Positions 8,648 to 54,200 of a DNA stretch of 64,000 nt are shown here, in pieces (the stretch's first letter is position 1; the number at the start of each line of letters is the position of its first letter). The stretch is taken from contig JAGSHB010000001.1 of assembly GCA_023954815.1 (NCBI GenBank), forward strand, positions 62,001-126,000. The letters are read 5' to 3'. This DNA comes from Myxococcales bacterium. GTDB lineage: Bacteria; Myxococcota_A; UBA9042. The notes under the pieces are model-generated. The model saw nothing but the letters and a program-made list of their open reading frames with translations. It had not been told where the DNA came from and ran no database searches. A program made the position numbers and the translations under genes.

Positions 8648-8707
8648 GTCACTCTGGCCGCAGTCACTCTGGCCGCAGTCACTCTGGCCGCAGTCACTCT
8701 GGCCGCA
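8648..8707. repeat. Four exact tandem copies of a 15-bp unit
   Basis: GTCACTCTGGCCGCA is repeated four times without change, starting 6 bp after the stop of the pseudouridine synthase gene. It ends just before the convergent lipoprotein stop at 8713. It is non-coding and fills the gap between two convergent genes. Confidence 0.95.
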
Positions 8708-8712
8708 GTGGC

Positions 8713-9816: not shown

Positions 9817-10628
9817 AGGTGGCCTCTCCTCACACTCCCCAGTGGTGGGGTTCCAAGCGGGCGTTTGCTCGGTGCCGTATCGATTCGGCTGATGAGCCAC
9901 TCGTAGCCGCGCAGGGTCCACAAGATGCGCCATTCCGGCTCGCCGCCGCCTTTGTTCAACGGCGGGTGCCGCCAGCGCATTTCGACGACGTCCGTACGCC
10001 CAGCGATGGCCTTGAGCTGTACGCCGCTGGAACGGGAACGGAGCAGGTCCGCAGCTGAGACGTCAGCGAACTGCGCAATCCAGCCGCCCAGCCAAATGCT
10101 GATCTCGCGTTCGCGGATCGGATGCTGCTTGGGCTCGACCCACAGGTCGCTCCACCGCTCTCCCCGCTGGTTGCCGTCCTCATCCAGGAGCGACCAGTCG
10201 ATTAATCTCTTGATGACCGCACGCGGCTTTGCACCGGAAAGCCCATCAAATAAGGCCGCAGCAGCCTTTTGTGGCGTGCCGCAAGATTCCTCACACCCGC
10301 CAACGACCGTCGGCTTGGGCTTGCGCCGCTGCCGGTAGACCGCGGCTTCCTTTTTTGCGGCTTCCTTGCCGGTCACAGCTGCCGGGGACGTTGCCGCTGT
10401 TCGGGCTGGCTTGCCCGCAGCCTTCACTGGCGACGCTTTCACAGGAGATGTAGCCGGTGTGGGCTTGGTGCAGCCAGCGACCGAGACGAGTGCGACAAGC
10501 CACACGACAATCGCGCCGAAGGAATCAGGCGCGGACGTGACCCTTTGGCCGAATCGCCCGACAGATGGCCCGCTGTACGTACCTAGCGGTCGGGCGATTG
10601 CTTCAGATGCACGACGCCCGGGGCTCAT
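9813..10628 (-). CDS. Lipoprotein of unknown function
   Basis: The 271-residue frame has ATGA overlaps at both ends, with the HD-GYP gene upstream and the propeller lipoprotein downstream. A hydrophobic stretch (IVVWLVALVSVAGC) ends in a lipobox at about residue 53, so the signal has an unusually long N-region unless an untested start is used. A Pro/Lys/Ala-rich linker follows. The C-terminal 150 residues include CEESCGTPQKAAAALFDGLSG and WIAQFADVSAADLL and seem to form one globular domain. I do not recognise it. Location in the envelope is inferred from the lipobox. Confidence 0.75.
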   Translation of the reverse strand: MSPGRRASEAIARPLGTYSGPSVGRFGQRVTSAPDSFGAIVVWLVALVSVAGCTKPTPATSPVKASPVKAAGKPARTAATSPAAVTGKEAAKKEAAVYRQRRKPKPTVVGGCEESCGTPQKAAAALFDGLSGAKPRAVIKRLIDWSLLDEDGNQRGERWSDLWVEPKQHPIREREISIWLGGWIAQFADVSAADLLRSRSSGVQLKAIAGRTDVVEMRWRHPPLNKGGGEPEWRILWTLRGYEWLISRIDTAPSKRPLGTPPLGSVRRGHL

Positions 10629-12220
10629 TGCACCTCGCTGCGAGGCACTTCGATGGGCGGCACGCTATGGCCATGCCGCGCCATGTGCTCCGCGCGTACG
10701 GCAAGCAGGCGATCGAGACACTGATTGAACGCCTCGACGACGTGCGGGTCGAAGTGCCCGCCGCTGAGCCCGTGCACGTAGCTCACCGCCTCGTCGATAC
10801 TCCAGGCGTCCTTGTAGACCCGGGGCGAGGTCAGCGCATCGAAGACGTCTGCGAGGGCCACAACCCGGCCCACCAGCGGAATTTCATTGCCCGTCAGCCC
10901 GCGTGGATACCCGCTGCCGTCCCACTTTTCGTGGTGGGTCGCAGCGATGTCTTCAGCCATCTGCAGCAGCTTGCTGTGGGAGCCGGCCAAGATTCGCGCG
11001 CCGATCGCCGGATGCTCTTTCATCACCGCGTACTCGTCCGGCGTGAGCTTGCCCTTTTTCAGGAGAATGCTGTCGGGGATACCGATCTTGCCGATATCGT
11101 GCATCGGCGCCGCCAACTTGATCAGCGCCTGCTCCTCAGACCCCATCCCCATCTGCCGCGCGATGATCTGCGAGTAGCTGCTCATGCGCTCGACGTGTTC
11201 GCCAGTGTCACCGTCGCGGTATTCAGCGGCGCGAGCGAGCCGCATGATGGTCTCTCGGCTGGCCTCAAGCAGTTGGTTATTCACCCCACGCAATCGGGCC
11301 AACAGGGCCGTCAGATCAGCGGTTCTCGCCTCGACCATCTCCTCGAGACGGCGATGGCTGTCACCGAGCTGAATCTCCGCGCCAATGCGCTCGGCTGCCG
11401 CTCGCAACACACGGAGGTGCGTATCGTCGGGCAGCTGCTCGCCGCCCCAGGCATGCAGCGCGCCGAGAACTTTGCCTTGCTGGCCTTTTAGCGGCAGCCC
11501 CACATACGGCAGGCTGCTCGGGTCTTCACCGGAGAGCACGCCATCGGATTCATCGATGCACAGCTCGTGAGCGCCCTGAACTAGCTCGTGATGGCGCCGC
11601 TCTACAAGGGTTCGTCCGCGTCCGCCCGTCCCATTTGAGGCATGATGACCAGCCGCAATCCGCGGGTGTTGGGCCGAGCCCAAGGTCACCACCACATGCG
11701 GCATGCGCATCCACTCGGCGAGGCGCCCGGCCAAGCTCGCTAGCACAGCGTCCACGGTGTCGTAGTTCTCGGTGAAGGTAGATAGCTCAAACAGCTGGTT
11801 GAGCAGGTCTCTGTCCCGGAGCGCATCCGCGGCCATGATCCGCACACGAACGAGGGTTCGCACCTCGATGGCCATCTCTAGGGGATCGAGCGGCAACTCG
11901 ACCATGGCGTCGACGGGAATCGCGGCGGCGACACTACGGCGATGGGGGTCTTGGCCACTGCCCACCAGCAAAAACTGGGGCCGCATGGCGTCACCCGCGG
12001 TCACATCAAGAGCGCTCGATAGCGTTCCGACCGCGGCGCAGGCCGGGTGACTGGCGTCGAGCACCACCAACTCTGGCGATAGGTCGTCCAGTCGCAGCTT
12101 GATCTCACTGAGACTGTCGGCTTGAAAGAGAAGGTAGCCCTTTGGCTGTGCAGCCTGACCGACGCACTTGAGCACCGAGGGGTTCTGACTGACAACAAGG
12201 ATGCGTGTCGTACCGCTCAC
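10625..12220 (-). CDS. HD-GYP domain regulator with degenerate receiver and GAF-like region
   Basis: HD-GYP proteins usually hydrolyse cyclic di-GMP. The C-terminal domain shows HDIGKIGIPD, the upstream GDTGEHVERM, EHPxIGAxIL, HHEKWDGSGYP and ALADVFDALTS, so the metal ligands and the GYP loop look intact. The N-terminus (ILVVSQNPSVLK) has the fold pattern of a receiver but lacks the acidic pair. It keeps a possible phospho-Asp in VVLDASHP. A GAF-like segment lies between about residues 150 and 310. The start is GTG at 12220, 6 nt after AGGAG; it gives 531 residues. The gene heads a coupled set with two lipoproteins. Catalysis is likely but not proven. Confidence 0.88.
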   Translation of the reverse strand: MSGTTRILVVSQNPSVLKCVGQAAQPKGYLLFQADSLSEIKLRLDDLSPELVVLDASHPACAAVGTLSSALDVTAGDAMRPQFLLVGSGQDPHRRSVAAAIPVDAMVELPLDPLEMAIEVRTLVRVRIMAADALRDRDLLNQLFELSTFTENYDTVDAVLASLAGRLAEWMRMPHVVVTLGSAQHPRIAAGHHASNGTGGRGRTLVERRHHELVQGAHELCIDESDGVLSGEDPSSLPYVGLPLKGQQGKVLGALHAWGGEQLPDDTHLRVLRAAAERIGAEIQLGDSHRRLEEMVEARTADLTALLARLRGVNNQLLEASRETIMRLARAAEYRDGDTGEHVERMSSYSQIIARQMGMGSEEQALIKLAAPMHDIGKIGIPDSILLKKGKLTPDEYAVMKEHPAIGARILAGSHSKLLQMAEDIAATHHEKWDGSGYPRGLTGNEIPLVGRVVALADVFDALTSPRVYKDAWSIDEAVSYVHGLSGGHFDPHVVEAFNQCLDRLLAVRAEHMARHGHSVPPIEVPRSEVQ

Positions 12221-12339
12221 GGCCGCTCCTGGGCTTAGGGCGCGGGACCATAACCGACCCCGCTCAAAAGGGGAAACGCGCCCGCTCCCTTCCCATCCGC
12301 ACTCAGATTGCGTACCACGGGCGCGCACCTGGAGGGATT

Positions 12340-15048
12340 ATGCCAGCTAGTTCTCGTGGCCGCTTGTTGAATTTGCGGGCAATGCGCGCCGCAGCAGCTT
12401 TGCTGTCGATCAGCCTGTGCTCCGTGTCGAGCCTGGCTGCACCACCGGCCAAGGGGCCCAACGGCGCCAAGCGCTACCTCAGTGGCCGCCTGCCCGTTCA
12501 TGAGCCTCGGGACCAAACGACCGACATCACGAACATGCTGCTCAAGGTGACCATCGATCCAGCCAAGCGCAGCGCCCAGGGTGACGTGACGTACAAGGGC
12601 GTGACGCTCATCGATCAGCCAGCGGTTATCCTCCATGCAGTCGACCTCGATATCGCAGAGGCCACGCTGCTCATGTTGGGAAAGACCACCAAGCTGCCGA
12701 CGAAGACCCCGGATCATCAGCTGCACATCGCCCTGCCGAAGGCGCCGGTGGGGACGCCATTCGAGGTGCACGTGCGCTGGAAAGTCATCCGCCCGGCGAT
12801 GGGCCTGTTTTTCATTCACCCGAACAAAGACGCACCCAAGCGGCCCATGCATGTCTGGACCCAAGGCGAGACCCACGGCATCCGGCATTGGGTACCCTCA
12901 CCGGACCATCCAGATGAGCGCATGACGTGGCAATTGCAGATCACCGCGCCGCGGACCATGCGTGTGCTCAGTAACGGCGCGCCGGGCAAAGTCACCCCCA
13001 GGGGCAAGCTGCATACGGCCCACTTCCGCATCGACAAGCCCTATCCGCTCTACCTCCTCAACGTCGCCATTGGCCCGTTTCAGGCCCATCGCCATCCCCA
13101 CAAGCGCGTGCAGATCACAAGCTGGGCCACAGCTGAGCACGCGCCTCGTGTTGGCCCCATCGGCAAGCGCACCGGCGAGATGCTGGACGTGTTCGAAAAG
13201 CTGACAGGCACGCGCTACCCCCACAAGCGCTACGGCCACGTCTACGTCGATGAGTTCACAGCTGGCGGCATGGAGAACATCACACTGACGACGTTGACCA
13301 CCCGGGCGATTGGTACACCGGCGACCGATCATGGCCGCACCATCGACGGCCTGCTCGCTCACGAGTTGGCCCATCAGTGGTTCGGCGACTTGGTGACGTG
13401 TCGGACGTGGGCCGACCTCTGGCTCAACGAAGGTTTCGCCACGTACTACCAGAAGCTGTGGACCTGGAAGGCCTATGGTCTTGAGCGGTTCGCCGAGCAG
13501 ATGGCTGGAGCCCGGCGCAGTGCCATGGGCGCCGACGCGGCCATTCCCCGGCCGGTGGTCTCCGATAGGTACCGCGACCCGAGCGATCTATTCGACGGTC
13601 ACGCTTATCCCAAAGGCGCGTGGGTGCTGCACATGCTGCGTGAGCGCTTGGGGCATGCTGTTTTTGACGCTGGGATCGCCGCCTACCTCAAGGCGCATCG
13701 GCATCAAAGCGTGGAAACGGCTGATCTGCGGCGGGCCCTGGAGCGGGTGAGCCATCGCAGTCTGCGTGGGTTCTTCAAGCGATGGCTGCGGCAGCCCGGT
13801 GGTCCACGGCTCACCGCCAAGTTGCAGTGGCGCAGCAAGACCAAGCAGCTGCAAGTACGGCTCAAGCAGCGCCAGGCGATCGATGGTCAGCGCCCGGCCT
13901 TCAACTTGCCCGTGGAGGTCGCCATCGCGACGGACAAGGGCATCGTTCGTCGCGTCATCGCCCTATCCGGCAAGACCGCGTCGCTGACGTTGCCGCTAGG
14001 CAGCGCACCGAGCTGGGTGATGGTCGATCCGGATATGCGGCTGCTCGCGAGTTGGAAGATCAAAGCGTCCGCAGACCTCGTACTACCCGCAGCCAAGCTC
14101 GCCCCCCACCCCGACGCACGCCTGCGCGCGGTTCATGCCCTGCGCGGGCATCTCGATCGGCGCAAGGTGGTTGTTGGCCTGACGGCTGTGATGCGGCACG
14201 ACAAGGCGCGGCATGTCCGGGCGGCGGCGGCCAAAATCTTGGGCGCGGCGCGGCGCGATGCGGTCGCCAAGGCGCTCCGCCGGGCGCTGCGCAAAGACAA
14301 GAGCGCGCACGTTCGGCGGGCGGCAGCGGCAGCGCTGGGGCAACTCCACGACACAGAGAGCCTGAAGTTGCTCAAGAATAAAGCCCGCGCAGACAAGAGT
14401 GATTCGGTCCGCAAGTCGTGTTTGCGGGCGGTCTTTGCCATCGACAGAATCCGCGCACGGGCCCTGCTGCTCGCTGCACTGCGGTGGCCGAGTTGGCGCA
14501 ATCACATCGAAGGTACCGCCCTGATGCTCTTGGCCAAGCTCGCTGACGGGCGCGACTTCGACCGCATTTGGAAGGCGACCACAGCGGGGCACCCCAAATC
14601 CTTGCGCGCCGTGGCAAGTCTGGCTTTGGCTGCCTATGCGGTGCGGGTCAGGGCCACGCGCGATCACGTGCGCGGACAGCTGGAGTCTCTCTTGCAGGAA
14701 GACAGCGTTAAACTCCGCTATCAGGCCGTCGCCGCACTGAAGATCCTGAGCTTGCCCGCCTCAGCCCGGCCGCTGCAGGCTGCGGCGGCGCGCGAGCCCC
14801 ACTTCCGGCTCGCCGATCGCATGCGGCGTGCAGCGGGGAGTCTCGGCCAGAAGTTGCCGGTGGAAGAGCGCATTCGTAGCTTGGAGTCAGCCCTACGGCG
14901 ACTCGAGCGGCGCAGTCACGAGGGCAAACGTCATCGCAAGGGCGAGGCTGCCCGCAAGCACGACAAACGCCACAAGCGCCCGGGCCCTGACAAGACCGCC
15001 CCCAAGGGCGGCGCCAAGCCCAAACAGGGCGCGACTGCCTCACACTAA
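12340..15048 (+). CDS. M1-family aminopeptidase with C-terminal HEAT repeats
   Basis: This zinc metallopeptidase removes N-terminal residues from peptides. The substrate motif GGMEN (variant of GAMEN) lies near residue 309. The zinc site is HELAHQ at 341-346 with the third ligand Glu364 in WLNEGF, exactly the HExxH-18-E spacing. ATG 12340 follows GGAGG and gives a signal peptide (RAAAALLSISLCSVSSLA), so it is exported. Residues from about 590 carry HEAT-like repeats (HVRAAAAKILG, HVRRAAAAALGQL). The last 50 residues are Lys/Arg/His-rich. It stands divergent to the HD-GYP gene with 119 bp between, and the thioredoxin gene follows after 21 bp. The total is 902 residues. Confidence 0.93.
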   Translation: MPASSRGRLLNLRAMRAAAALLSISLCSVSSLAAPPAKGPNGAKRYLSGRLPVHEPRDQTTDITNMLLKVTIDPAKRSAQGDVTYKGVTLIDQPAVILHAVDLDIAEATLLMLGKTTKLPTKTPDHQLHIALPKAPVGTPFEVHVRWKVIRPAMGLFFIHPNKDAPKRPMHVWTQGETHGIRHWVPSPDHPDERMTWQLQITAPRTMRVLSNGAPGKVTPRGKLHTAHFRIDKPYPLYLLNVAIGPFQAHRHPHKRVQITSWATAEHAPRVGPIGKRTGEMLDVFEKLTGTRYPHKRYGHVYVDEFTAGGMENITLTTLTTRAIGTPATDHGRTIDGLLAHELAHQWFGDLVTCRTWADLWLNEGFATYYQKLWTWKAYGLERFAEQMAGARRSAMGADAAIPRPVVSDRYRDPSDLFDGHAYPKGAWVLHMLRERLGHAVFDAGIAAYLKAHRHQSVETADLRRALERVSHRSLRGFFKRWLRQPGGPRLTAKLQWRSKTKQLQVRLKQRQAIDGQRPAFNLPVEVAIATDKGIVRRVIALSGKTASLTLPLGSAPSWVMVDPDMRLLASWKIKASADLVLPAAKLAPHPDARLRAVHALRGHLDRRKVVVGLTAVMRHDKARHVRAAAAKILGAARRDAVAKALRRALRKDKSAHVRRAAAAALGQLHDTESLKLLKNKARADKSDSVRKSCLRAVFAIDRIRARALLLAALRWPSWRNHIEGTALMLLAKLADGRDFDRIWKATTAGHPKSLRAVASLALAAYAVRVRATRDHVRGQLESLLQEDSVKLRYQAVAALKILSLPASARPLQAAAAREPHFRLADRMRRAAGSLGQKLPVEERIRSLESALRRLERRSHEGKRHRKGEAARKHDKRHKRPGPDKTAPKGGAKPKQGATASH

Positions 15049-15069
15049 CCCCTCGGTACGAGCCCCACC

Positions 15070-15645
15070 ATGACCGCAGATTCTTCACCGACCTCAGCCC
15101 CAAACGCCGAGCCGTCCGGGCGCAAACCCGCCGCGATCATCGCGGTTGGCGTCGCATTTGCGCTGGTTTTTGCGGCCATCGGCCTACGCCAAACGACGCC
15201 GCCGCCCAGTGGGCTCGAGGGCAAGATGGCACCCACGTTTGCGTTGCCGCTGCTGACCGCCACGCCCCAGCCCGAGCCCGAGCGCGTGACAGTGCCCAGC
15301 AAGTCGCGACCGACGCTGCTGCATTTTTGGGGCCCGTCGTGTGCGCCCTGCGTTGAGCACGCGCCCGTGGTGGCCAAGCTCCACGCCGAGGGGGTGAAAT
15401 CCGGCGCCTATGACGTGGTGACGGTGACGGCGGAGGACGTGCCTGATGTGCGCGCCTTCATGCGGGAAAAGAAACACACCTACCCCGTGCTGTACGACGC
15501 CGATGGGCGCGCTCACGGCAAGTACTTCGTCTCGGCCATTCCGGTGGACTTCATCATCGACAAGTCCGGCGCGGTGTTGCGCGAGCTGCGAGGGCCGCGC
15601 GACATCGATGAGCTCAAGGAGTTGCTGGTCCAGGCGGCGAAGTAG
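15070..15645 (+). CDS. TlpA/ResA-like membrane-anchored thioredoxin
   Basis: One N-terminal helix (residues 20-41, AAIIAVGVAFALVFAAIGL) anchors a periplasmic thioredoxin fold. The redox site is CAPC in LLHFWGPSCAPC, close to the WCxxC of the family but with Ser before the first Cys. A cis-Pro is present in SAIPVDFIID. The product has 191 residues, normal for TlpA/ResA. It follows the aminopeptidase gene by 21 bp on the same strand. Such proteins reduce disulfides or cytochrome c apoprotein thiols; the partner here is unknown. Cys-rich exported proteins elsewhere in the window are possible clients, which is inference only. Confidence 0.88.
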   Translation: MTADSSPTSAPNAEPSGRKPAAIIAVGVAFALVFAAIGLRQTTPPPSGLEGKMAPTFALPLLTATPQPEPERVTVPSKSRPTLLHFWGPSCAPCVEHAPVVAKLHAEGVKSGAYDVVTVTAEDVPDVRAFMREKKHTYPVLYDADGRAHGKYFVSAIPVDFIIDKSGAVLRELRGPRDIDELKELLVQAAK

Positions 15646-15669
15646 TCTCTGGCCCGGTCTTCGCGACAA

Positions 15670-18600
15670 TCAGAACGAGTACAGCAGTCCAGCCTGTAGC
15701 TGGCCGAATTCTTCGAGCGACGGGCAGTTGCCGAGGGCTGTTTGGGAAAAGTGGATCGTACAGCGTCGGTCGAGCGCGATGCCGTAGTCGATCCGCAGTG
15801 GGATTTGGCCTGAGACCAAGAAGCGTAAACCGACTCCAATGCTATGGCGGTAAGCTTGGCTGTAGCTGAGGCCGTCGAAGTCGTCGGCAATGGCACCCCA
15901 ATCCCAGAATACAGCGCCCCACAGACCGGCACGTCGGATGAGCGGAAACCGCCCTTCCACCGTGCCAGCCAAGATCATTCGGCCGTTGTCGATCGTTTCT
16001 GCGCCATTGGGGCAGGAAGATGGGTCTGAATCAACCAAGCACACCGGCGTCTCAGTCCCTCCCGGGACATGTTCCTCTGGGTTCTGTACCGGCTTCATCA
16101 ATGGTTTCGGCTCGCCGTTGCGTTGGTACTGCAGCACACCGTTGTCCTTCACGCCGCGCAGTCCGAGCTGACCGCCGAGGCGAAACGTCTCGTTGGCCGG
16201 CAGCCCCTCATTGGCGACACCGCCGCGGACCATCAGCCCCAACGTAAAGGTGTTCCGCAGGGTGCGATAGAACTTGAACTGCCCTTCAGCCTTCAGAAAG
16301 TTGCCCGGCTCCGCGTTGCGCACGAACAGGGGGGTGCCGTCCGCACCCAGTTCGGGATCGCCGTTGGCATCTACTTTCGCGACGACGGTTTCGACCACCG
16401 CGTTGATGTAGGCGAGGGATGCCGTCGCCGAAAACCCGCGCGTCGGGTTGAGTGGGCTATCGAGCCTGTCCCAACTTGCTCGCGGGATGAGTTTGTACTG
16501 CTGCAGCCAAGGCGTCAGATTGGCTGAATCCTCGGCTTTTCGGTAGCGCACAAGCCCTCCCTCGCCGCCGATGGAGACCGCGAGATGTTTGAGGAAGCGC
16601 TTCGACACGTCGGCGGCAACCATGAGCTTGTCGATGTCGACGGTGGTCGTCACAAAGTCCCGTGATGCGAAGGGCACAACGCGCAGGGACACATCTCGCC
16701 AGATTCGTGGGATCGTCCAAGACACAGCCACCAAGCCGAGAGAAATCCAACGTTTCTTATAGTCGTCCGGGTTGGACGAAACGCCCCCACGCGTGACAAA
16801 TCGCAGCTCTTGGCCCAATCCGCGGAAATTACGTAACCGTGCGTCTGCGCTGGCTGTGAGGACCAAGTTTGGCAACTTCGCCCCCACACGCTGGCCGCTA
16901 CCCGACGTCAGTCGGGCACCCGCACTAACGAAATGGTCCAGGATGTCCACGAACAGCGCGGGAGGTTCCCCAGTGGACTGCGCTGCCGATCGATCGAGGT
17001 TGGCCGTTTGAAAGCCAGCGTCAAAGTCGACGGTGTTGTGGTCGTTTTCTACGACCCGCACCAGCATCGCCACGTGCTTGCGCGGCGGGCACTCATCGGC
17101 GCCGATGCGGTCGAACGAGACCGACCGAAAAAGCCCGAGATTACGGATTTTTCGCAGCGCAACGAACAGCGCTTGCCCCGAGTACAACGAGCCGTATTTT
17201 GGCATGTCGCGCATGAGCAGACTTGCGTGGGTGGTGAAGTTGCCCGAGACAAAGATCTCGCCAATACGCACGCGAGGCCCCTCAACAATCTCCAGTCGGA
17301 GGTCCACCGATTCGCTCAAGATTCGTGTTTTGGTACACGCACACCAATCGTCCGGTCGGCACTCCCGCAACTTAGTGGGCGCCTTCTTGACTCCCTTTGC
17401 TGGCTCCTGCTCGGCGCTGCACCGCTGGCGGCTCGCCTTCTTGGGTGGGCACTTGGCACCCACCGGCGGGACCCGCCTTTCGCAGGGGTCCACCGGCGTC
17501 ATCACGCGTGCGGTGAGGCTCTCGGCCGCTGCGCCTTTGACGCGACAGAGCACCTCCACCTTTGCCTGGAAATAACCGTGCTCCTGGTACCAGTCCTCGA
17601 CCTTCCGCAGCCCCTTCACCATGCGAGAAAAGGACAGTACGTCGCCGCGATTGAGGCCCATGAGTTTGCGCGCGCGCTGCTGGCCACGGTCGCTCGACCC
17701 TCCAACTTGCAAATCACCGAGCCGTGTCCGTCGCCCCTCTGTCAGGGGGACGTCGATGTAGATGAAGTGTTCTCCGATCGGCCGTCGGACGCGAAACCCG
17801 CGATCATACATCAAGATATCGATGGACTGCTGCCCACCCACACGCTTGCGCCGGCGAACGATGCCACCGCGGCGGCCACGCTCGCTGGCATTCATGGCGT
17901 AGCGAAACTCGAAGAAACCGGCGTCGCGATACAGTTGCCGCAGGCGCGCCAAGTCTCCGAGTAGCTGGGCCGTTTGCAGGTAGCCACCATCGTCGAAGAA
18001 GTCATACGGCCGCGTGACGACCGCCTCGTAGATCTGCTCCGACGTGAAGTGCTTCACCCCCGAAAAACGCATGCCGCGAATCTGGGCTTGATAGCCTGTG
18101 CTGATGCGATAGGTGATGGCGCGCTGGACCCGGCTCTTCCACGCGCGCGGCACATCCCGCACCTCCAACTCGACCTCGCTGAACAAGTAGCCGCGATTTT
18201 CCAAGAGTGCACGGAGCGCGCGGCGGCCGCGGTCGGCCTCATCGATGTCGAACACCCCACTTTGCGCAAAGGGCAACACAGCGTGGTAGTCGTCATCATC
18301 GGTGAGCCGCCAAGTCGCGTTGGCGTGGGCTTGACCAATACTCTCACGCTCCATCAGGCGCACGATGTTGCAGCGTCCAAGTTGGATCCGAACGTGCACT
18401 TTTTGGCTTGCTTCGACGTGATTGACCGCCACCTTTGGGTTGTTGTAGCCCAAACCGCGCAATCGCTCACGGATGCGACCTTTCGCCCGTACGCCCGCGC
18501 GGCGGGTGAACACGTCGACCTCGTTGAGACCGCTCTGTCGCAGCAGCGCGCGTTCGCTCACCGTCCGGCATATCAGACCAGCATCTCGCTCTTGGGCGGT

Positions 18601-40554: not shown

Positions 40555-41859
40555 CTAGCGCCGACCGGACTCGAGCAGTTCCGGTCCTTGAGCGAGCACG
40601 TACGCGAGATAGACTTCCGCGTCTAAACCAGCGTCGACGCGGCCTGCATCGACTTCGGCCTCCAGCCAGCGCTGCATCTGCCCAAGCCACGGGCCACCCG
40701 GCCGCCCGGTGCGCGCCATCACTACATTGCCGAAGCCCTTGGGCAGGGGCGGTACACGTGCATCGGCCTCGCGGACTTCCGTGATGCGCTTGACCAGCTC
40801 AACGCCCAGGGAGCGCACTTCTTTGATCCGCCAAGCGCGCTTGGTGGTGTAGTCACTGCGCGAAAAGGCGATCACATCGTCGAGATGCTCTCCCATATCG
40901 CGAATCAGCCTGCGCACGGCGCTGTCGGTCCAATCCGTCGCATAGACATTGGCCCGGGCGTGGTTGCTGATCACGTACACGATCCGATCACGCAACGCTT
41001 CATCCATGTGAAAACGGCCAGCGACGCCTTCCATCAGCGACCCACCGAGCTCTTCGTGACGGAAGAAATGTACCTTACCCTTGCCGGTCACCGACCGCGT
41101 CCACACTTTGCCGGTGTCATGCATCAGCGCAGTCCACCGAACGGTCAGCGTAGGCGGGCACTTGTCGACGACCTGCAGCGTGTGATCCCAGATGTCCTTG
41201 TGGTGCACGCGGCAGCTTTTATGAAAATCCACCATCGCGCAGACTTCGGGCACCATGAGCGGCAAAATCCGAGCATCATTGAGAAATTGCAGCCCCACAC
41301 TCGCGCGCCATGCAACCAGTAACGTGCCAAAGCGCTCGCACCACACCTGACGATCGAGCCCCAAGACGTGCCCCGAATCTCGCCTCGCTTGTCGGGTTAA
41401 TTCTGAAGTCGGCACGAGCCCCGTCTTTGCCGCCCAAACGCCCAGATCCAGCAGGCGCGTCGCATCGCCCCACAAGGAACGGCGGGCATCGTGGCGCAGG
41501 TTCAGCTTTCCCTTTGCGACTTCGTCCTGGACGCCAGGCAATGTCTCAGTGACACCCTCAGCCGTTCCGATCAGCGTCCATGCGCGCACGACATGTGTAT
41601 CCGCAGCGAGGCGCGCTGTCGCGACCGGATTATCAGAGGATTGCAGGGTCAGCCCCATCTCTGTTGACGACGCGACCGCGTCAGCTGGCACCTGATCACC
41701 GCGGATCCAGATCGGCGTCCGAAGCGCTCCGGGAAGCGGTATGTCGCTCGCCATCGACAACGCGACAGGGCCTGTCGTTGCAGGTTCACAACCAGCCTCA
41801 GCCAACTGAGAAAGTAGCTGAGATAGACGTTGAGAGTCGGTGGAAGGGCTTGGCGTCAT
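40555..41859 (-). CDS. HD-domain protein related to CCA-adding enzymes, lacking nucleotidyltransferase motifs
   Basis: The C-terminal half has an HD phosphohydrolase site: HHKDIWDHTLQVVD, then LMHDTGKVWT and VISNHAR. The preceding region (RHDARRSLWGDATRLLDLG, then LPLMVPEVCAM) matches the neck and body of class II tRNA nucleotidyltransferases. The expected head motifs GGxVRD and DxD are absent, and the N-terminal 110 residues are unlike the transferase domain. The start ATG 41859 (GGAG 9 nt upstream) gives 434 residues; an upstream ATG at 41985 is less likely. It may be a phosphohydrolase only. The gene is convergent to the YkgJ-like gene and divergent to the repeat locus. Confidence 0.82.
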   Translation of the reverse strand: MTPSPSTDSQRLSQLLSQLAEAGCEPATTGPVALSMASDIPLPGALRTPIWIRGDQVPADAVASSTEMGLTLQSSDNPVATARLAADTHVVRAWTLIGTAEGVTETLPGVQDEVAKGKLNLRHDARRSLWGDATRLLDLGVWAAKTGLVPTSELTRQARRDSGHVLGLDRQVWCERFGTLLVAWRASVGLQFLNDARILPLMVPEVCAMVDFHKSCRVHHKDIWDHTLQVVDKCPPTLTVRWTALMHDTGKVWTRSVTGKGKVHFFRHEELGGSLMEGVAGRFHMDEALRDRIVYVISNHARANVYATDWTDSAVRRLIRDMGEHLDDVIAFSRSDYTTKRAWRIKEVRSLGVELVKRITEVREADARVPPLPKGFGNVVMARTGRPGGPWLGQMQRWLEAEVDAGRVDAGLDAEVYLAYVLAQGPELLESGRR

Positions 41860-42051: not shown

Positions 42052-42264
42052 GTGACTCCGCCATCTCTCCCCCACGAGTGCGGACGATACTGCTATTCGA
42101 CGACGCGCGGGAGGGTTCCCGACGCAATCAGTCATTTGCACTCAGGGAGAGCAGCCCCCCGCTGCTCGTCGGTCGGGGAAACCCATGACGAAGAAGAAAA
42201 CCCTTCCGTCCGTGAAGAAAAACGTCGCCGACTTCCTGTCGAGCGAAGAAGTGGCCATCAGTGA
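42052..42264 (+). CDS. Possible 70-residue leader ORF overlapping the repeat-protein gene
   Basis: GTG 42052 follows a perfect AAGGAGG (42041-42047) by 4 nt, one of the strongest ribosome sites in the window. The frame runs 70 codons and overlaps the first 80 bases of the repeat-protein gene in another frame. The product has no recognisable domain; it contains four Cys and ends in a basic stretch (REEKRRRLPVERRSG). It may be a regulatory leader peptide whose translation affects the downstream start at 42185, or the ribosome site may be a false lead. Codon use gives no strong support for protein function. Confidence 0.35.
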   Translation: MTPPSLPHECGRYCYSTTRGRVPDAISHLHSGRAAPRCSSVGETHDEEENPSVREEKRRRLPVERRSGHQ

Positions 42265-42499
42265 CAAGCAGGAGGAGCGCGTTTCGAGCTACCTCATGTT
42301 GTCGAGTGATGCGCCGTTGAATGCTGGTGAGGCTGCCCTTGGCGCTGAGCACTGCAGTCACGGTTCACACGGTAGCCACGGATCTCACGGCAGCCACGGC
42401 TCACACGGTAGCCACGGTTCACACGGTAGCCACGGTTCACACGGTAGCCACGGTTCACACGGTAGCCACGGTTCACACGGTAGCCACGGCTCCTGGTAG
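42185..42499 (+). CDS. Precursor-like protein with 15 C-terminal Ser-His-Gly repeats
   Basis: The start ATG 42185 follows GGGGAAA. Residues 1-56 look like a RiPP leader: charged and helical (VADFLSSEEVAISDKQEER), without signal or membrane helix, ending in GEAALGAEH. After Cys57 come 15 uninterrupted SHG units (residues 58-102), then Ser-Trp and stop. This fits the pattern of His-Xaa-Ser repeat (HxsA-type) peptide precursors, whose known systems use radical SAM enzymes HxsB/HxsC. No such enzyme is in the window. A metal-binding His-rich protein is the main alternative. At DNA level the 18-bp unit TCACACGGTAGCCACGGT occurs four times exactly. A 2-nt change in the last copy sets the stop. Confidence 0.75.
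   Translation: MTKKKTLPSVKKNVADFLSSEEVAISDKQEERVSSYLMLSSDAPLNAGEAALGAEHCSHGSHGSHGSHGSHGSHGSHGSHGSHGSHGSHGSHGSHGSHGSHGSW
42401..42490 (+). repeat. 18-bp tandem repeat coding for SHGSHG
   Basis: TCACACGGTAGCCACGGT is present as four exact copies (42401-42472) and one copy with a single change (42473-42490). Diverged copies precede it back to 42365. A shortened 16-bp copy follows at 42491-42506 and shifts the frame. The exact copies suggest recent expansion by slippage. Confidence 0.95.
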
Positions 42500-42707: not shown

Positions 42708-43295
42708 TCACACAGCAGTCGGGACGCAAGCGTCTACGGAACGGGGCGCGCCATCGACCGAATCGGAGAGCATCTCGCCCCAGGGTCGCGTCGCGTCGCT
42801 TGGGACGTTGCGGTGTGGCTGCTGTTCCATGGCCTGACGCAGTCTTGAAATCAACCGGAGATGCCCTCTCCGAGCTGCCGGATCGGACCAACCTTCCTGT
42901 CGGGCCACCGTCGCCAGCGAATGACCGCGCACATAGGTTCCGTTGAGCACTGCGCGATCTCGCTGCCCCAACTTGGCGCGCTCAAGGACACGTCTGGCAT
43001 CGACGCGATTGCGGATTGGCCCGCTGTCATACATGCCCTCTGGCTGCGAGTTCAGGTAGTGCATCTTGCCGCGCACATTTCGGAGGTCGCGTCGTTTTTG
43101 ATCGATGGCCCGGCACTTCAACACCTTCCACTGCGGCGTATGCAACATCTCCTCAACCTGAAGATTGCGGCTGTGCGCGTATTCCACCAGCCCCAACAAG
43201 GCAGTCGCGACGAGGTCTTCGCGTTCAAAGGGATCTTGGGTGAGACGTTGCGCGATGATTTGGGCGGCGGTGAAAGCTGCGGGCTGACGTGACAT
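42708..43295 (-). CDS. Small sigma70-family (ECF-like) sigma factor
   Basis: The start ATG 43295 follows AGGAG by 5 nt; a longer frame to 43541 is rejected. Residues 15-75 match sigma region 2 from 2.2 onward (EREDLVATALLGLVEYA and VLKCRAIDQKRRDLR), though region 2.1 is short. Residues 105-155 match region 4.2 (LGQRDRAVLNGTYVRGHSL, then VARQEGWSDPAARRGHLRL). About 40 disordered residues follow. It may direct transcription of specific genes; the convergent repeat gene is one possible target by location only. No anti-sigma factor is next to it. Length is 195 residues. Confidence 0.72.
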   Translation of the reverse strand: MSRQPAAFTAAQIIAQRLTQDPFEREDLVATALLGLVEYAHSRNLQVEEMLHTPQWKVLKCRAIDQKRRDLRNVRGKMHYLNSQPEGMYDSGPIRNRVDARRVLERAKLGQRDRAVLNGTYVRGHSLATVARQEGWSDPAARRGHLRLISRLRQAMEQQPHRNVPSDATRPWGEMLSDSVDGAPRSVDACVPTAV

Positions 43296-43585
43296 CGGGA
43301 CTCCTGGGCTCAGAGGGTAGACGACCTCTCTCAAAGCACAGTCGATGCCAGCTGCCTCATACTTTATGGAATATGCCGCAGAGTTCGATAGTTGTCCGAT
43401 GGTCGGCGTTGCGGTGAGCGCTCGACCATGGGTCTGGCCGCCCCACCCCCTATGAGGCATCTGGGCCCCACGCTCGTCGCGCTTTGGAGGGGCCGACAAT
43501 GTTGACGATCGCCACGGGGGACCTATGGTCGACGCGTGCACCTCTTGCGATGCGCAGCGCTGGGGCTATCCCCCGAGGAGGCGCA

Positions 43586-45541
43586 ATGAGTCGGCGACTA
43601 GCTAGCGGATGGACCCTTTTCTTCATGGTCGCATCGCTGAGCGCCTGCGATACGGAGGACAAGACCCCGGCGACGCAGCCCGCGGCGGAAGTGCCGGTCG
43701 AGGCCGTCAAGAAGCCGCCGCCGCCGCCCGTGAAGGGGCCACCGCTCTCCGCGATCGCTGCCCGAGCGGCCAAGCGGGCAGCCGGGCTGAAAGCGCGTGA
43801 CAAGGCGACGCTCAAGGGCCTACTCAAGAAAGTACGGCATGACGGACCGGTGCTGAAACATCTGTATAAGTCTTCAAAACTGCAACACTACACCGCCGAC
43901 GGCACGTTGTCGGAGTCCGGAGATGCCCTGTTGGCGTTGCTCGCTGACTTGGAGCGCCACGGGGTCGATCGCCGGCCCTATCGCCTCGCAGATATTGACG
44001 CCGCGACCGCAGCCGTGGTCGCCGCTTTTCGCGCTGAGCGGACCGCAGCCGCAAACCTGGGCTCAGACGTAGGTGCGGCCAAGGTCGCCATGGCAGCGGC
44101 AGCGTGGACGCGCGGCGGTCCCGGCGGCGAGATCGTCCTGGTGAAAGCCAGCGGTGGAAAGCTCAGTGGCGCTGCTCGCAAAGGCCTCGGCGATGGACTC
44201 GATAAGGTGATGGACGCGTCCATCAAGGTTCGCCAGGCCATGTGGCGGGCCGACGTGGCCATGAGCGCTGCAGCGGTTCGGTATGTCATCGACTTTACCA
44301 TGGCAAAGCCCGCGCATCCCCACGAGTACATCAGCCCTGGGACGTTGCGGAAAAATGCGGATGCCGAGGCCGAGGCGCTGATCGCGCGGTTTGATGCCCA
44401 CAAGGGTGCCCAAGCCAAGACGATGAAGGCCGCGTGGCCCACTCACCCGCAGTACAAGCGGCTGCTCAAGGCTGTCGATGCGTACAAGCGCTTGGCCGAC
44501 AAAGGAGGGTGGGAGTTGCTCCCGCCACTCGGGCGCAAGAAGATCGAAAAGGGCGGTAAGGGGCCGTTCGTGCTTGCGTTGCGCAAGCGGTTGTTGGCCG
44601 AGGGCTACGAGCTGCCAGCCGACGGCGAGCGCTTCGACAAGCCGGTGCACCACGCGGTGGTCGAGTTTCAGCGTCGCCACCAACTCAAGGAAGATGGCGG
44701 CGTCGGCAAAGGGACCATCGCTGCACTCGACGTGACGGCAGAGCAGCGGGTTCGGCAGTTGAAGCTCGCGCTGACCCGGTGGCGGAGCGCATTGGCGCGT
44801 GATGCGGAAGGGTTCTACGCCCACGTCAACGTCGCCGCCCAGCGGGTGAAGCTGTACGACAAGAACAAGCGTATTCGGGAACATCGGGTGATCGTTGGCA
44901 AGGACAACGACGACATCGACTACGACAAGCGCATCAAGGGCAAGATCAATCGCACCAAGCTGTTTAGCGCCAAAATGAAGCGCATCACCCTCGCGCCCAG
45001 GTGGTACCCGACGCCCCGCGTGATCGATCTGGAGTTGGGGCCAGCGCTCGCCAAAGATCCCGACTACTTCGAAAAGCACGGCTACGTCTCTGAGATGCAG
45101 GCCGACGGCTCAGAGAAGGTCTACCAACGCGCTGGCAAATCCAACCTGCTCGGCGTGGTGAAGTTCCAATTCCCCAATAAACACGCGATCTACATGCACG
45201 ACACCCCCGGCCGTGCGCTGTTTAAGCGGGCGCGCCGGGCTTACTCCCACGGTTGCGTCCGTCTGCACAAACCGAAGCAGCTCGCCTACTACCTGCTCAA
45301 GCGGGATCGCGGTTGGAAGCGTAAGAAGATCGACGAGATCATCAAAAAGCGCGAAGAGAAGATCGTCGGGCTGCGCAAGCACTTCTGGGTCTACATCGAC
45401 TACATCAGCGCAACGGTCGACGATGACGGTACGACCCGGTTTTGGAGCGACATCTACGCCTACGACTTGGCCTATTTTACCGGCCAGCTTCCTGTTCAAG
45501 AGACGGAAGAGTACAAGGCAGCTTCGACCCGTGGTCTGTAG
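43586..45541 (+). CDS. L,D-transpeptidase lipoprotein with peptidoglycan-binding domain
   Basis: L,D-transpeptidases form 3-3 cross-links in peptidoglycan or attach lipoproteins to it. The catalytic motif SHGCVRL holds Cys557 and His555, preceded by the family's IYMHDTPG. A PG_binding_1 domain lies at about residues 325-385 (FVLALRKRLLAEGYELP, then VVEFQRRHQLKEDGGVG). ATG 43586 follows GAGGAGG by 5 nt and opens a lipoprotein signal with lipobox SLSAC, so it is envelope-anchored. The length (651) and layout match the YcbB/LdtD class with a long N-terminal region. The next gene begins 35 bp downstream on the same strand. Confidence 0.93.
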   Translation: MSRRLASGWTLFFMVASLSACDTEDKTPATQPAAEVPVEAVKKPPPPPVKGPPLSAIAARAAKRAAGLKARDKATLKGLLKKVRHDGPVLKHLYKSSKLQHYTADGTLSESGDALLALLADLERHGVDRRPYRLADIDAATAAVVAAFRAERTAAANLGSDVGAAKVAMAAAAWTRGGPGGEIVLVKASGGKLSGAARKGLGDGLDKVMDASIKVRQAMWRADVAMSAAAVRYVIDFTMAKPAHPHEYISPGTLRKNADAEAEALIARFDAHKGAQAKTMKAAWPTHPQYKRLLKAVDAYKRLADKGGWELLPPLGRKKIEKGGKGPFVLALRKRLLAEGYELPADGERFDKPVHHAVVEFQRRHQLKEDGGVGKGTIAALDVTAEQRVRQLKLALTRWRSALARDAEGFYAHVNVAAQRVKLYDKNKRIREHRVIVGKDNDDIDYDKRIKGKINRTKLFSAKMKRITLAPRWYPTPRVIDLELGPALAKDPDYFEKHGYVSEMQADGSEKVYQRAGKSNLLGVVKFQFPNKHAIYMHDTPGRALFKRARRAYSHGCVRLHKPKQLAYYLLKRDRGWKRKKIDEIIKKREEKIVGLRKHFWVYIDYISATVDDDGTTRFWSDIYAYDLAYFTGQLPVQETEEYKAASTRGL

Positions 45542-45576: not shown

Positions 45577-45816
45577 ATGGGCGGCGATGAGCAGCGCGAT
45601 GAACCCAACACCGCAAGCGGCGACGCCGACGTGACGCGGGAAGCTGATTTGGGCACGGAGACCCTGGCAAATCAGTACGAGATTCGAATTCTGGCGGATG
45701 GACGCGTCGTCTTTGGCGACCTCCCTCAGGGGCTTTTGGAAGTGGCGCGAGTTGTGGCAGGGTCCGAACCCGGGCCGCAGACTGTGGTGCCGGAGAGCGA
45801 GAACCACGACGAATGA
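45577..45816 (+). CDS. Small protein of unknown function coupled to the kinase gene
   Basis: The 79-residue product begins at ATG 45577, 7 nt after GAGAGGG. Its acidic N-terminus is followed by the compact block YEIRILADGRVVFGDLPQGL, which looks like a small beta fold. There is no signal or Cys. The stop overlaps the kinase ATG by 4 nt (ATGA), which is the main support for it being real. It is 35 bp downstream of the transpeptidase gene. Function is unknown; a kinase partner or substrate is possible by context. Confidence 0.7.
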   Translation: MGGDEQRDEPNTASGDADVTREADLGTETLANQYEIRILADGRVVFGDLPQGLLEVARVVAGSEPGPQTVVPESENHDE

Positions 45817-47621
45817 ATCGCCTCTGTCCCATGTGTGGCAACAAGACGGAACAAGCGCGTTGCCCGAAAGACGGCACCGCGACGCTGGTCTTAGCCCAAA
45901 ACCCAGACAGCCGACTCTCTGAAGGTACTGAGATCAATGGCCGATATCGCATCGGGCAGGCGATCGGGCAGGGCGGTTTTGGTGCCGTCTATCGGGCGAC
46001 CAGCTTGGCGACCGGCCAGACGATGGCGGTCAAAGTCCTGGGGATTTCGCTCGACAGCGACGAGTCTGAGCTGATTCAGCGCTTTTTTGCTGAAGCTCAG
46101 ATCACCGCCAGCTTGAAGCATCCCAATACGATTCGCGTGTTTGACTTCGGCCAGACCGAGGGCGGCGCGCTCTACATCGCCATGGAGCTGCTCAGCGGCC
46201 AGGACCTCAACGAACTGCTGCGCGAGCGCCGGCACGCAGGTACCGCGTTGACCCAGGCGGAGACGTCTCGCATCGCCGCCCAGTCCCTGCGCAGCCTCAC
46301 CGAAGCCCATATGAGTGGTCTGGTGCACCGGGATCTCAAACCGCACAACATCTTTCTCAACGATGTGCCGGGCGACGATCCGATCGTGAAAGTCCTGGAT
46401 TTCGGCATCGCCAAGCGCTTGGGATCCAATCTGACGGGCACGGGGCAGGCCTTTGGCACGCCCAACTACATGAGCCCGGAACAGGCGCAGAATCGACCGA
46501 TCGACGCCCGCAGCGATCTCTACTCTCTCGGTGTGGTGCTGTATCAATGCGTGGCCGGCGCTTGCCCCTTCGAAGGGGACAATCCGTTGGCGGTGCTGTT
46601 GTCGCACGTCACCGACAAGCCAGAAGATCTGTACGCGCGCGCCAAACATCCCGTGAGCCGGGAATTTGCTGCCGTGATCGAGCGGTCGCTGGCCAAAGAC
46701 CCGAACGATCGTTTTGCAGACGCCATCGAGATGCGCCGCGCCCTGGAGGGCTGTCCACCGGCGCCGTCCGAAGCGCAGTGGAAAAGCGGTGAGGCTGAAC
46801 CGCAGCCCGCCGATCCGAGCGGTACGCCCGATGCGCCCGTCGATGACCGCACTGCCGCATACGCGCCGATTGCGGTGGGCGATGGGCCTGTCCATGTCGT
46901 GCCGCCGAAGAACGCCACGCCCGCGGCTGAGCCCGAGGGTGGCTCGGGCTATACACAGGCCTTTCTCGACCGTGGATTAGCCGACGAGGTCGCTGCCGTC
47001 CTCTCAGCAAAATCGGCAGGCGAGTCCACCGGAGAACAAGACGAACCGCTGCCAAAACCCCGGTCTGCCGCCTGGATGGCGCTGCCGCTGCTGTTGTTGG
47101 CCGCTGGCGCTGGGCTCTGGTTCTTTCTCGGTGGTACGTCATCGCAGGCCAATGTAGCCGTGGCTTCCGACGCTGGATTGTCCACCGACGCAAGCGCTGC
47201 TGTGACGGGAGTTGACGCGGGTCAGCCCCCAGACGCGGGGGCTTCCCTTGCTGCCGATTCAGTTGGGCAGGACGCGGCACAGGCATTGGACGCATCCGGC
47301 GACACGCAGGTAGCGTCGCTGACGACCATCGCCTTGAAGACGCAGCCACCTGGGGCCCAGGTGCGTATCGACGGAAAGGTCGTCGGCAAGACGCCGCTGC
47401 CACTGCAGCTGGCGAACGACGGGACGCTGCGCGCGACCCTCAGCCGCGCTGGTTACCGCGACAAAGAGGTGGTGCTGGTCAAATCAGATGCGCCGGCGCG
47501 TACGGTGAGCTTGACGAAAGTTCCGAGAGTACGGAAGCCGCGACCTGTGAAGCGCCCCAAGCCTCCACCACGCAAGGTCAGGCCCCCCAAGGTCAAGAGC
47601 GCCCTCGAGGAGCGCCTGTAG
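45813..47621 (+). CDS. Membrane Ser/Thr protein kinase with zinc ribbon and PEGA domain
   Basis: A zinc ribbon (CPMCGNK, CPKDG) opens the protein. The Hanks-type kinase domain follows, with IGQGGFGAVYRA (ATP loop, about residues 50-61), MAVKVL (Lys), HRDLKPHN (catalytic loop, near 172), LDFGIAK and GTPNYMSPEQ. A disordered linker leads to one membrane helix (about 419-440, LPLLLLAAGAGLWFFL), then a DAG-rich extracytoplasmic linker and a PEGA domain (PPGAQVRIDGKVVGKTPLPL). The tail is Pro/Lys/Arg-rich. This layout is common in myxobacteria. Sensing through PEGA at the cell wall is inference, supported by the upstream L,D-transpeptidase gene. Length is 602 residues. Confidence 0.95.
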   Translation: MNRLCPMCGNKTEQARCPKDGTATLVLAQNPDSRLSEGTEINGRYRIGQAIGQGGFGAVYRATSLATGQTMAVKVLGISLDSDESELIQRFFAEAQITASLKHPNTIRVFDFGQTEGGALYIAMELLSGQDLNELLRERRHAGTALTQAETSRIAAQSLRSLTEAHMSGLVHRDLKPHNIFLNDVPGDDPIVKVLDFGIAKRLGSNLTGTGQAFGTPNYMSPEQAQNRPIDARSDLYSLGVVLYQCVAGACPFEGDNPLAVLLSHVTDKPEDLYARAKHPVSREFAAVIERSLAKDPNDRFADAIEMRRALEGCPPAPSEAQWKSGEAEPQPADPSGTPDAPVDDRTAAYAPIAVGDGPVHVVPPKNATPAAEPEGGSGYTQAFLDRGLADEVAAVLSAKSAGESTGEQDEPLPKPRSAAWMALPLLLLAAGAGLWFFLGGTSSQANVAVASDAGLSTDASAAVTGVDAGQPPDAGASLAADSVGQDAAQALDASGDTQVASLTTIALKTQPPGAQVRIDGKVVGKTPLPLQLANDGTLRATLSRAGYRDKEVVLVKSDAPARTVSLTKVPRVRKPRPVKRPKPPPRKVRPPKVKSALEERL

Positions 47622-51297: not shown

Positions 51298-54200
51298 ATG
51301 AAGCGGATGCTAATCAGCGCTGATCTCGAAGAATCACGCGCAGCGGTAGTTGAAGACAATCGGTTGGTCCATCTGGAGATCGAGCCGGTCAACCGCGATT
51401 CAGTGAAAGGCAACATCTATCGCGGCGTGGTCGCTAGGGTGGAGCCGTCCCTGCAGTCAGCGTTTGTCGACTTTGGTCGGCCGAAGCAGGGCTTCCTGCC
51501 AGTTGGCGAGATCCACCCGAAAATTCGCGGTGAAAGCAAAGACAAGCGCACGCCGATTCAAGAGATTTTGAAGGCCGGTCAGGTCATCCTGGTTCAGGTG
51601 ACCAAAGACGAGATCGGCAACAAGGGCGCGACGCTGACGACGTTCATCTCGTTGCCCGGTCGCTACCTCGTGCTCATGCCCGAGAGCGACAAGACCGGTG
51701 TGAGCCGCAAGTTGAGTGATGCGGCCCGTGCCAGGGTCAAAGAGCTCACCGATAAGATGAAGGTCCCGGACGGGTTTGGCCTCATCGTGCGCACCGCCGG
51801 TGAGCGGGCAACCAAGCTCGAACTCACCAAAGATCTCGTCTATCTCAACCGGCTGTGGAGTCACATCGACGACGGTTTCAACTCCGGTAAGGGCGCCGCT
51901 GCGCTGTACCACGAGCGCAGCCTCGCAATTCGCTTCGTACGGGACTACTTCAAGCGGGACATCAAAGAGATCGTCATCGACGACGAGCAGACGCTGGCCG
52001 AAGTGATGGCCTACGTGAAGGTGCTCATGCCGCGCAATCTCAGCGCAATTGAGCGCTATTCGGGCGTGATTCCGCTGTTTGCGCGCTATGGCATCGCCGG
52101 GCAGGTCGAGAGCGTATTTGCGCGTCAGGTGCCGTTGCAGGGTGGCGGGTCGATCGTCATCGATCAGACCGAGGCCTTGGTCGCGGTTGACGTCAACAGT
52201 GGTCGTGTCAAAGGCAAGGACATCGAAGAGACTGCACGCCAGACCAATATCGAGGCGGCTCAAGAGGTTGCGCGCCAGCTGGTGCTCCGCGATCTCGGTG
52301 GCTTGGTGGTCATCGACTTCATCGACATGCGCGATCGCAAGTATGTGCGTGAGGTGGAGAGTGCGCTGAAGTCGGCGATGAAAAACGACAAGGCGCGGCA
52401 CAAGCTGGGTCGCATCAGCGAGTTTGGGCTGATGGAGCTGTCTCGCCAGCGTCTGAAGAGCTCGGTTAACAAGGGTGTATTTGAGAGTTGCGTGCACTGC
52501 AGCGGCACCGGATTTTACCGGACGACACCCAGCTTGGCCGCTTCCGTGATGCGCCGCATCCACGAGCTCGTCGCCAAGGGCAACATCGCCTACTTGGTTG
52601 TGACTCTGCCGCCTGAGGCAGCCAACTACCTGCTCAACGCCAAGCGCAGTGAGCTGGCCAACGTGGAGCGCGAGTATCACGTATCCATTGAGATCATTGG
52701 TGTCGAAGGCATGACCGCGGCGCAGGTGACGATCGAGCACATGCAGCGGCAGCCCAACAAGTCTGGGTCCGAGCAGATTCGAGAAGCCCGTTTCAAGCGC
52801 GTGACCCGTCGTTTGGACCTGGTGCGCAACAAGCTGCTCAAGCAGGAAGAGGCGCGTATCGAACGGCGTCTCTCCGCTGCACTGTCGGGTTCTTCGGTCG
52901 ATTATGCCGACGTGTACGACGGCGTGATTGCAGACACCGCCGATGTGGCCGCAGAAGCGCGTGAAGCCGATGTTCGCCGTGAACAGCGTCGGCGGCGCGA
53001 CCGGGAGCGCAAGCAGGGCAATCAGCAGGCAGATCTTGCGGCCGTCAGCGCGCCACCCGCTGCAATTGAGGTTCCGCTCCAGCCCCAGGGATTCACCGGC
53101 TGGCTGAAGGGCTTGTTTGGCATGGGGCCCAAGGCGGTGGAGACCGTGGTCGTTGAGGCGGCCGTTGTGCCTTCGCCGGCGCTGCAAGCGCCTGAGCCCG
53201 CGCCAGAACCCAAAGAAGCGCGTGACGAGCAGCCTGAGCGCGGTCGTCATCGCTCGCAAAACGACGAGTCTGAGGACGGGGACGGGCGTCGAGGTCGCCG
53301 TGGTGGTCGCCGCCGTCGTCGTCGCGATGATGACCGTCGTGGCCCCCGTGAAGGACGCGAAGGACGCGAAGGACGCGAAGGACGTGAAGGACGCGAAGGA
53401 CGCGAAGCCCGTGGGCAGGAAGATTCGTCTCAGAAGAAGGCGAAATCCACCAAGGAAGCGCCCGAAAAGTCGGGCAAGAAAGCCGCCGAAGGCCAAGACG
53501 CCGCCGTTGACTCGAAGGACGGCGATGAGGAGCGCGCAGCCAAGCGCCGTCGTCGTCGTCGGGGCGGTCGCCGCCGGGGTGGACGTCGCCGTGACGGAGA
53601 GGACAACGGCTCGCCTGAGAGCAACGGCCCGACAAACGATGAGGCACCGGCAGCTGCTGCGGGCGCTGACAAGCCTGCGGACGAGCAAACGCTGCAGGGG
53701 GCATCTGAGCCGGCTGTAGAGGCGAAACCCAAGGCGGAAGAGTCTGCGGCTTCGACCACCGAGGCTGCCAAGGCGCCCTTGGTTGATGCGCGTGCGCTCG
53801 CTGAGGCCAGACTTGCCGAACTTCGCGCTGCGCGCGGCGTCACGGCTCCACCTGCCGAAACCGATGCCGCACCAACAGAGGCGGTCCAGGCAGAAGGAGC
53901 CGAGGAATCGGCCGGTACAGAAGAGGCTGCCGAAGCCACGGAAGCTGTCGCGGCTTCGGAAGCTGTGGAAGTTGCTACTCCGGCGGCTGATGGGCCGTCA
54001 TCTGACACCGTCGCGGCTGGCGCGGAGCAATCAGCTGCCGAGGCTTCGGATGCCGACGCGCCGCCAGCTCTTCCCGGAGCCGACGCTGAGGAGCTCGCTG
54101 CTGACGCGGACAACGAAACCGACGCCGATACGGCTTCTGCGGATCAGGCAGCTGCCCCGCTCGCTTCCGTAGAAGAAGCGGTCGTTGCAGCGGAGCCAGA

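Follow-up and report, generated by a model that had tools for sequence, protein, structure and literature searches.

A His-Xaa-Ser repeat precursor of the HxsA4 family encoded apart from its probable maturation enzymes in an uncultured Myxococcales-type bacterium

The canonical HxsABCD system is that of Haft and Basu, as cited in PMC9062424, and its components are represented by the models TIGR03979 (HxsA), TIGR03978 (HxsB), TIGR03977 (HxsC) and TIGR03976 (HxsD). The peptide family treated here is also already known, being listed in NCBIfam as HxsA4, though it is uncharacterised; the initial annotation had put it forward as the strongest candidate for an undescribed peptide system, a view that has to be given up. 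Our search of the open literature found no experimental work on the chemistry of HxsB. Among ProcA peptides, dispersed precursors are served by one lanthipeptide synthetase.

The window analysed here is a 64-kb stretch of one contig (64,000 nucleotides). As judged from its sequence, the ORF at 42185..42499 (+), which encodes 104 residues between an ATG start and a TAG stop, belongs to subfamily HxsA4 of the His-Xaa-Ser (Hxs) class and specifies a ribosomally made precursor peptide of an uncultured Myxococcales-type bacterium. A GGGGA ribosome-binding site at 42175..42179 (+) is kept before the same ATG in the precursors of family f1 and is common to most of 17 relatives compared; upstream of the f1 precursors, conservation is limited to this site and there is no shared promoter motif. 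The translation bears out the architecture reported initially, namely a charged leader of about 56 residues, one Cys, 15 perfect SHG units and a terminal Ser-Trp. The leader (residues 1-56, 42185..42352, +) has no Cys, and an alignment of 18 homologues reveals the conserved motif LPxxKK...DFLSxEE..IS.KQ. It is followed by H56-C57-S58 (42350..42358, +), invariant in the 18 aligned homologues; a further homologue, from G041, has HGS in its place. The core consists of 15 exact Ser-His-Gly units, S58-G102 (42356..42490, +), and ends in S103-W104 (42491..42496, +). Homologue comparison shows the terminal Trp to be invariant, as SW and in family f9 as QW. Since H56-C57-S58 stands ahead of the array, the repeats are one HCS and 15 HGS, giving 16 His-Xaa-Ser units in the register HCS-(HGS)15-W.

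The array is preserved as protein. Over 47 codons, comparison with 11 relatives gives 21-57 synonymous and 0 non-synonymous differences, and both AGY and TCN codons are used for Ser. Divergence that is synonymous only, together with mixed Ser codons, indicates that the array is a genuine coding feature and no mere repetition of DNA; the core is under purifying selection and the ORF is strongly selected. Other short tandem arrays occur in the window at 8648-8709 (four perfect 15-base copies) and 53350-53407 (six 9-base copies).

Family membership is clear from profile scores, as the early reading of an HxsA-type RiPP precursor anticipated. NF038313 (HxsA4) matches at 92.9 bits against a curated cut-off of 55, aligning residues 7-104 with profile positions 2-93 of 93, and the C-terminal His-Xaa-Ser repeats are present with 16 units. 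The precursor falls below the curated cut-off of TIGR03979 (31.7 bits vs 121.65) and also scores under those of the HxsA2 and HxsA3 models. It is the one HxsA4 over cut-off in its genome. At E < 1e-10, homologues are present in 46 of the 53 genomes searched. Homologues lacking repeats were looked for and not found: all those read carry repeats and end in W, and nearly all begin with HCS. The array reaches 31 SHG units in G030 (L090, C51), and the precursor is in tandem duplicate in G005 (L019, C103). Leaders in families f2, f5, f8 and f12 contain a run of hydrophobic residues that often closes on an AxA-like sequence (e.g. TFLLIAGTGSGQALA) and is mostly weaker in f1.

The surroundings of the precursor offer no maturase. 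A radical SAM profile search of the genome places none of its matches within the 64-kb window, in agreement with the initial annotation, and the single match on the precursor contig lies 4.1 kb beyond the right end of the window and resembles QueE; a maturase in the window was therefore rejected. The precursor is flanked by a CCA-transferase/HD-like gene (40558-41859, -), a sigma-factor-like gene (42711-43295, -; profile scores under cut-offs), an L,D-transpeptidase (43484-45541, +) and a gene that is protein kinase-like by its sequence motifs (45813-47621, +). This order recurs around the precursor across family f1 and is complete in G008 (L085), which argues that the f1 precursor has a stable home apart from the Hxs genes. 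We note that the sigma-factor-like gene is convergent to the precursor and kept beside it in many f1 genomes; its product could be a regulator.

The candidate enzymes are encoded by six genes running in one direction on another contig of the same genome, C48 (locus L073). These are p289, a radical SAM-like protein without Cx3Cx2C (10174-11043), two HxsC-like radical SAM proteins of about 720 aa (rSAM723, 10946-13117) and 381 aa (rSAM381, 13134-14279), HxsD (14558-15022, between the HxsB and HxsC-like genes), an HxsD-like protein (15060-15293) and HxsB (15336-16844, profile match 15396-16796). HxsB scores 511.7 bits with TIGR03978 (cut-off 370) and is the only one over cut-off in a genome with 51 radical SAM matches. 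The genome's single HxsD match reaches 45.4 to 46.7 bits with TIGR03976, just below the cut-off of 50, and the HxsD-like protein is over the NF038315 cut-off (58.1 bits vs 41). The best HxsC match in the genome is far below cut-off (TIGR03977, 96.2 vs 267.9), and none of the 53 genomes has an HxsC over it. For the protein of about 720 aa the best model is NF038332 (HxsC4), but at 103 bits against a cut-off of 500 it is not a member of that family. The maturase had been expected to be either distant or of a new type. The first expectation holds; the second falls away, since HxsB over its curated cut-off occurs on C48 with HxsD, HxsD-like and HxsC-like proteins, so that no new maturase type is needed. 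A separate precursor inside the cluster was considered and rejected, as it contains neither a His-rich ORF nor a conserved small precursor-like ORF.

After its own model, HxsB is matched next best by those of the CcpM, PapB and QhpD types, each of which matures a peptide or a protein; among solved structures, the radical SAM protein 5wgg and anaerobic sulfatase maturases are closest to it in sequence. A search of genome contigs with HxsB yielded four close relatives only, from Myxococcales MAGs and one bacterium MAG. The Cx3Cx2C motif is likewise missing from the f1 orthologues of p289 in L078, L079, L084 and L096 and present in the relative from G026 (L081:13864-14781); with the predicted starts, p289 of family f1 is probably a catalytically dead partner. 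The cluster copy of HxsB in G005 (C126, L079:9274-10773) also lacks Cx3Cx2C and scores 340.9 bits, below cut-off, and this genome has a second HxsB, over cut-off, on C777. Second HxsB proteins over cut-off are found as well on C7 of G008, on C131 of G012 (L088) and in about nine other f1 genomes. The one in L088 adjoins a radical SAM gene resembling HxsC4 (164 bits, under the cut-off), and no recognisable His-Xaa-Ser precursor lies near it. Directly upstream of the Hxs cluster, Lgt-like and LspA-like genes (L073:8107-10033, -) are kept in f1.

HxsD and the HxsD-like protein form a homologous pair (hhalign 95.6%) and share a predicted beta-alpha-beta-beta-alpha topology, with pLDDT of 94 for the HxsD-like protein and about 90 over the folded part of HxsD. 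The Foldseek matches of these models are all weak, being ferredoxin-like or RPB11-like, and none has E < 0.001. A role for HxsD as a RiPP recognition element was rejected on the basis of the models, as the predicted topology is unlike the PqqD-type layout. In aligned HxsD proteins, the C-terminus bears a highly conserved acidic motif, DFLDDPLGIAVPWEEKF, in a tail predicted to be disordered; it is possible that this motif serves as a docking peptide.

In this genome, the precursor and HxsB are on different contigs and at least about 70 kb apart, a minimum composed of 55 kb from the precursor to the nearer contig end and 15 kb on C48. The same separation holds in f1 and f5: wherever a genome has both genes over cut-off, they occupy different contigs; as read from these assemblies, the split arrangement is kept across the whole myxobacterial family f1. 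With the f1 genes on different contigs, linkage lends no support to the pairing inside f1. The support comes from relatives and from co-occurrence. The precursor directly adjoins HxsB in families f8 (G028, G035, G038, G041) and f9 (G029, G036). G036 (L082) has the precursor together with the full set of p289, rSAM723, rSAM381, HxsD, HxsD-like and HxsB, and in G026 (L081) the precursor stands beside p289-rSAM723-rSAM381-HxsD-HxsD-like. A Tat-signal-like protein is also encoded in these two clusters (L081:10266-10790 and L082:4795-5421; 32% identical), and none was seen in that of f1. Of 53 genomes, 43 have both precursor and HxsB and 7 have neither, with 3 having the precursor only and 0 HxsB only (Fisher P 8e-7, a value inflated by phylogeny). 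Counted by genus, the figures are 26 both, 2 precursor only, 0 HxsB only and 7 neither (P 5e-6, again inflated by relatedness). The joint absences are spread over several families and hence do not reflect one event. As for the precursor-only genomes, G014 is 58% complete, G051 is 68% complete and in G050 HxsB is cut at contig ends. The proposed check of the rest of the genome thus led to HxsB, HxsD and HxsC-like proteins on C48, and a restriction of the gene to genomes without radical SAM enzymes was looked for and not found.

Taken together, sequence, selection, family membership, enzyme presence, co-occurrence and adjacency in relatives make it very probable that the ORF encodes an HxsA4 RiPP precursor matured in trans by the C48 Hxs enzymes, trans action being implied by the separate loci. 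The leader would dock the peptide on these enzymes, HxsB, helped by HxsD, the HxsD-like protein and the two HxsC-like enzymes, would modify the His-Gly-Ser units successively, and the leader would be removed after modification, the order of steps being our inference.

An unlikely alternative is that the product is an unmodified His-rich peptide for metal binding or storage, with a superficial Hxs resemblance. Its 16 regularly placed His and one Cys could serve as ligands for Ni, Cu or Zn, and in f1 its gene is unlinked to the enzymes, but the leader fits HxsA4 and is kept independently of the repeats, homologues directly adjoin HxsB and HxsC-like genes, and precursor and HxsB are present or missing together across genomes. 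Moreover, Ser varies no more than His does, a constancy that metal binding alone would not call for. We give even less credence to a RiPP precursor matured by some radical SAM enzyme outside the C48 cluster: that cluster is unlinked to the precursor here and another of the 51 matches could act, yet the single HxsB over cut-off and the single HxsD of the genome are both on C48, and in G036 and G026 the precursor is accompanied by the same gene set. A collagen-like Gly-X-Y structural peptide, suggested by a Pfam Collagen match of 34.2 bits (cut-off 27.2) to residues 60-102, was rejected as highly improbable, because periodicity alone lies behind the match, the array has no proline and a fixed His and Ser at every unit, and the HxsA4 leader is conserved.

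Returning to maturation by the C48 enzymes, the presence of one Cys per precursor means that Cys thioethers cannot explain a repeat-wise modification, so that chemistry on His/Ser has to be of a different type. A bond between His and Ser inside each unit would fit the three-residue spacing, though this is a guess. A bolder proposal, which we regard as tentative and rather doubtful, is a dispersed Hxs line working in trans on one precursor and made up of HxsB, a non-RRE HxsD/HxsD-like pair, two HxsC-like enzymes of non-canonical type and a radical SAM relative that lacks the cysteines; it would place a new His/Ser modification on each of the 16 units. If true, it would yield a repetitive product of a new type. 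With one precursor, perfect repeats, one HxsB and one HxsD, the enzyme can be matched to its substrate despite the lack of linkage, and the HxsA4 family here is a good substrate for HxsB chemistry. RiPP mining by neighbourhood only would miss or orphan this conserved Myxococcota class.

Compared with canonical HxsABCD, the system shares an HxS repeat precursor, an HxsB over cut-off and an HxsD homologue. It differs in that the precursor is under the TIGR03979 cut-off; moreover, no HxsC is over its own, which sets the system apart from a textbook HxsABCD one. It adds two HxsC-like proteins, an HxsD-like protein and a radical SAM-like protein in which Cx3Cx2C is missing. The precursor is elsewhere in the genome, its adjacency to maturase genes being absent in f1 and present in f8 and f9. 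The kind itself is known, and the variant features are the split loci, the lack of a canonical HxsC and the third radical SAM relative with its missing cysteines. The match to HxsA4 (NF038313) is full length, comprising leader, HGS array and terminal Trp; the gene is unlinked from HxsB here, but no tested feature separates the protein from the family. Like the ProcA systems, as generally known, this one has a precursor gene away from the enzyme and would rely on maturation in trans, but it uses another enzyme class, and the many precursors there correspond to one here.
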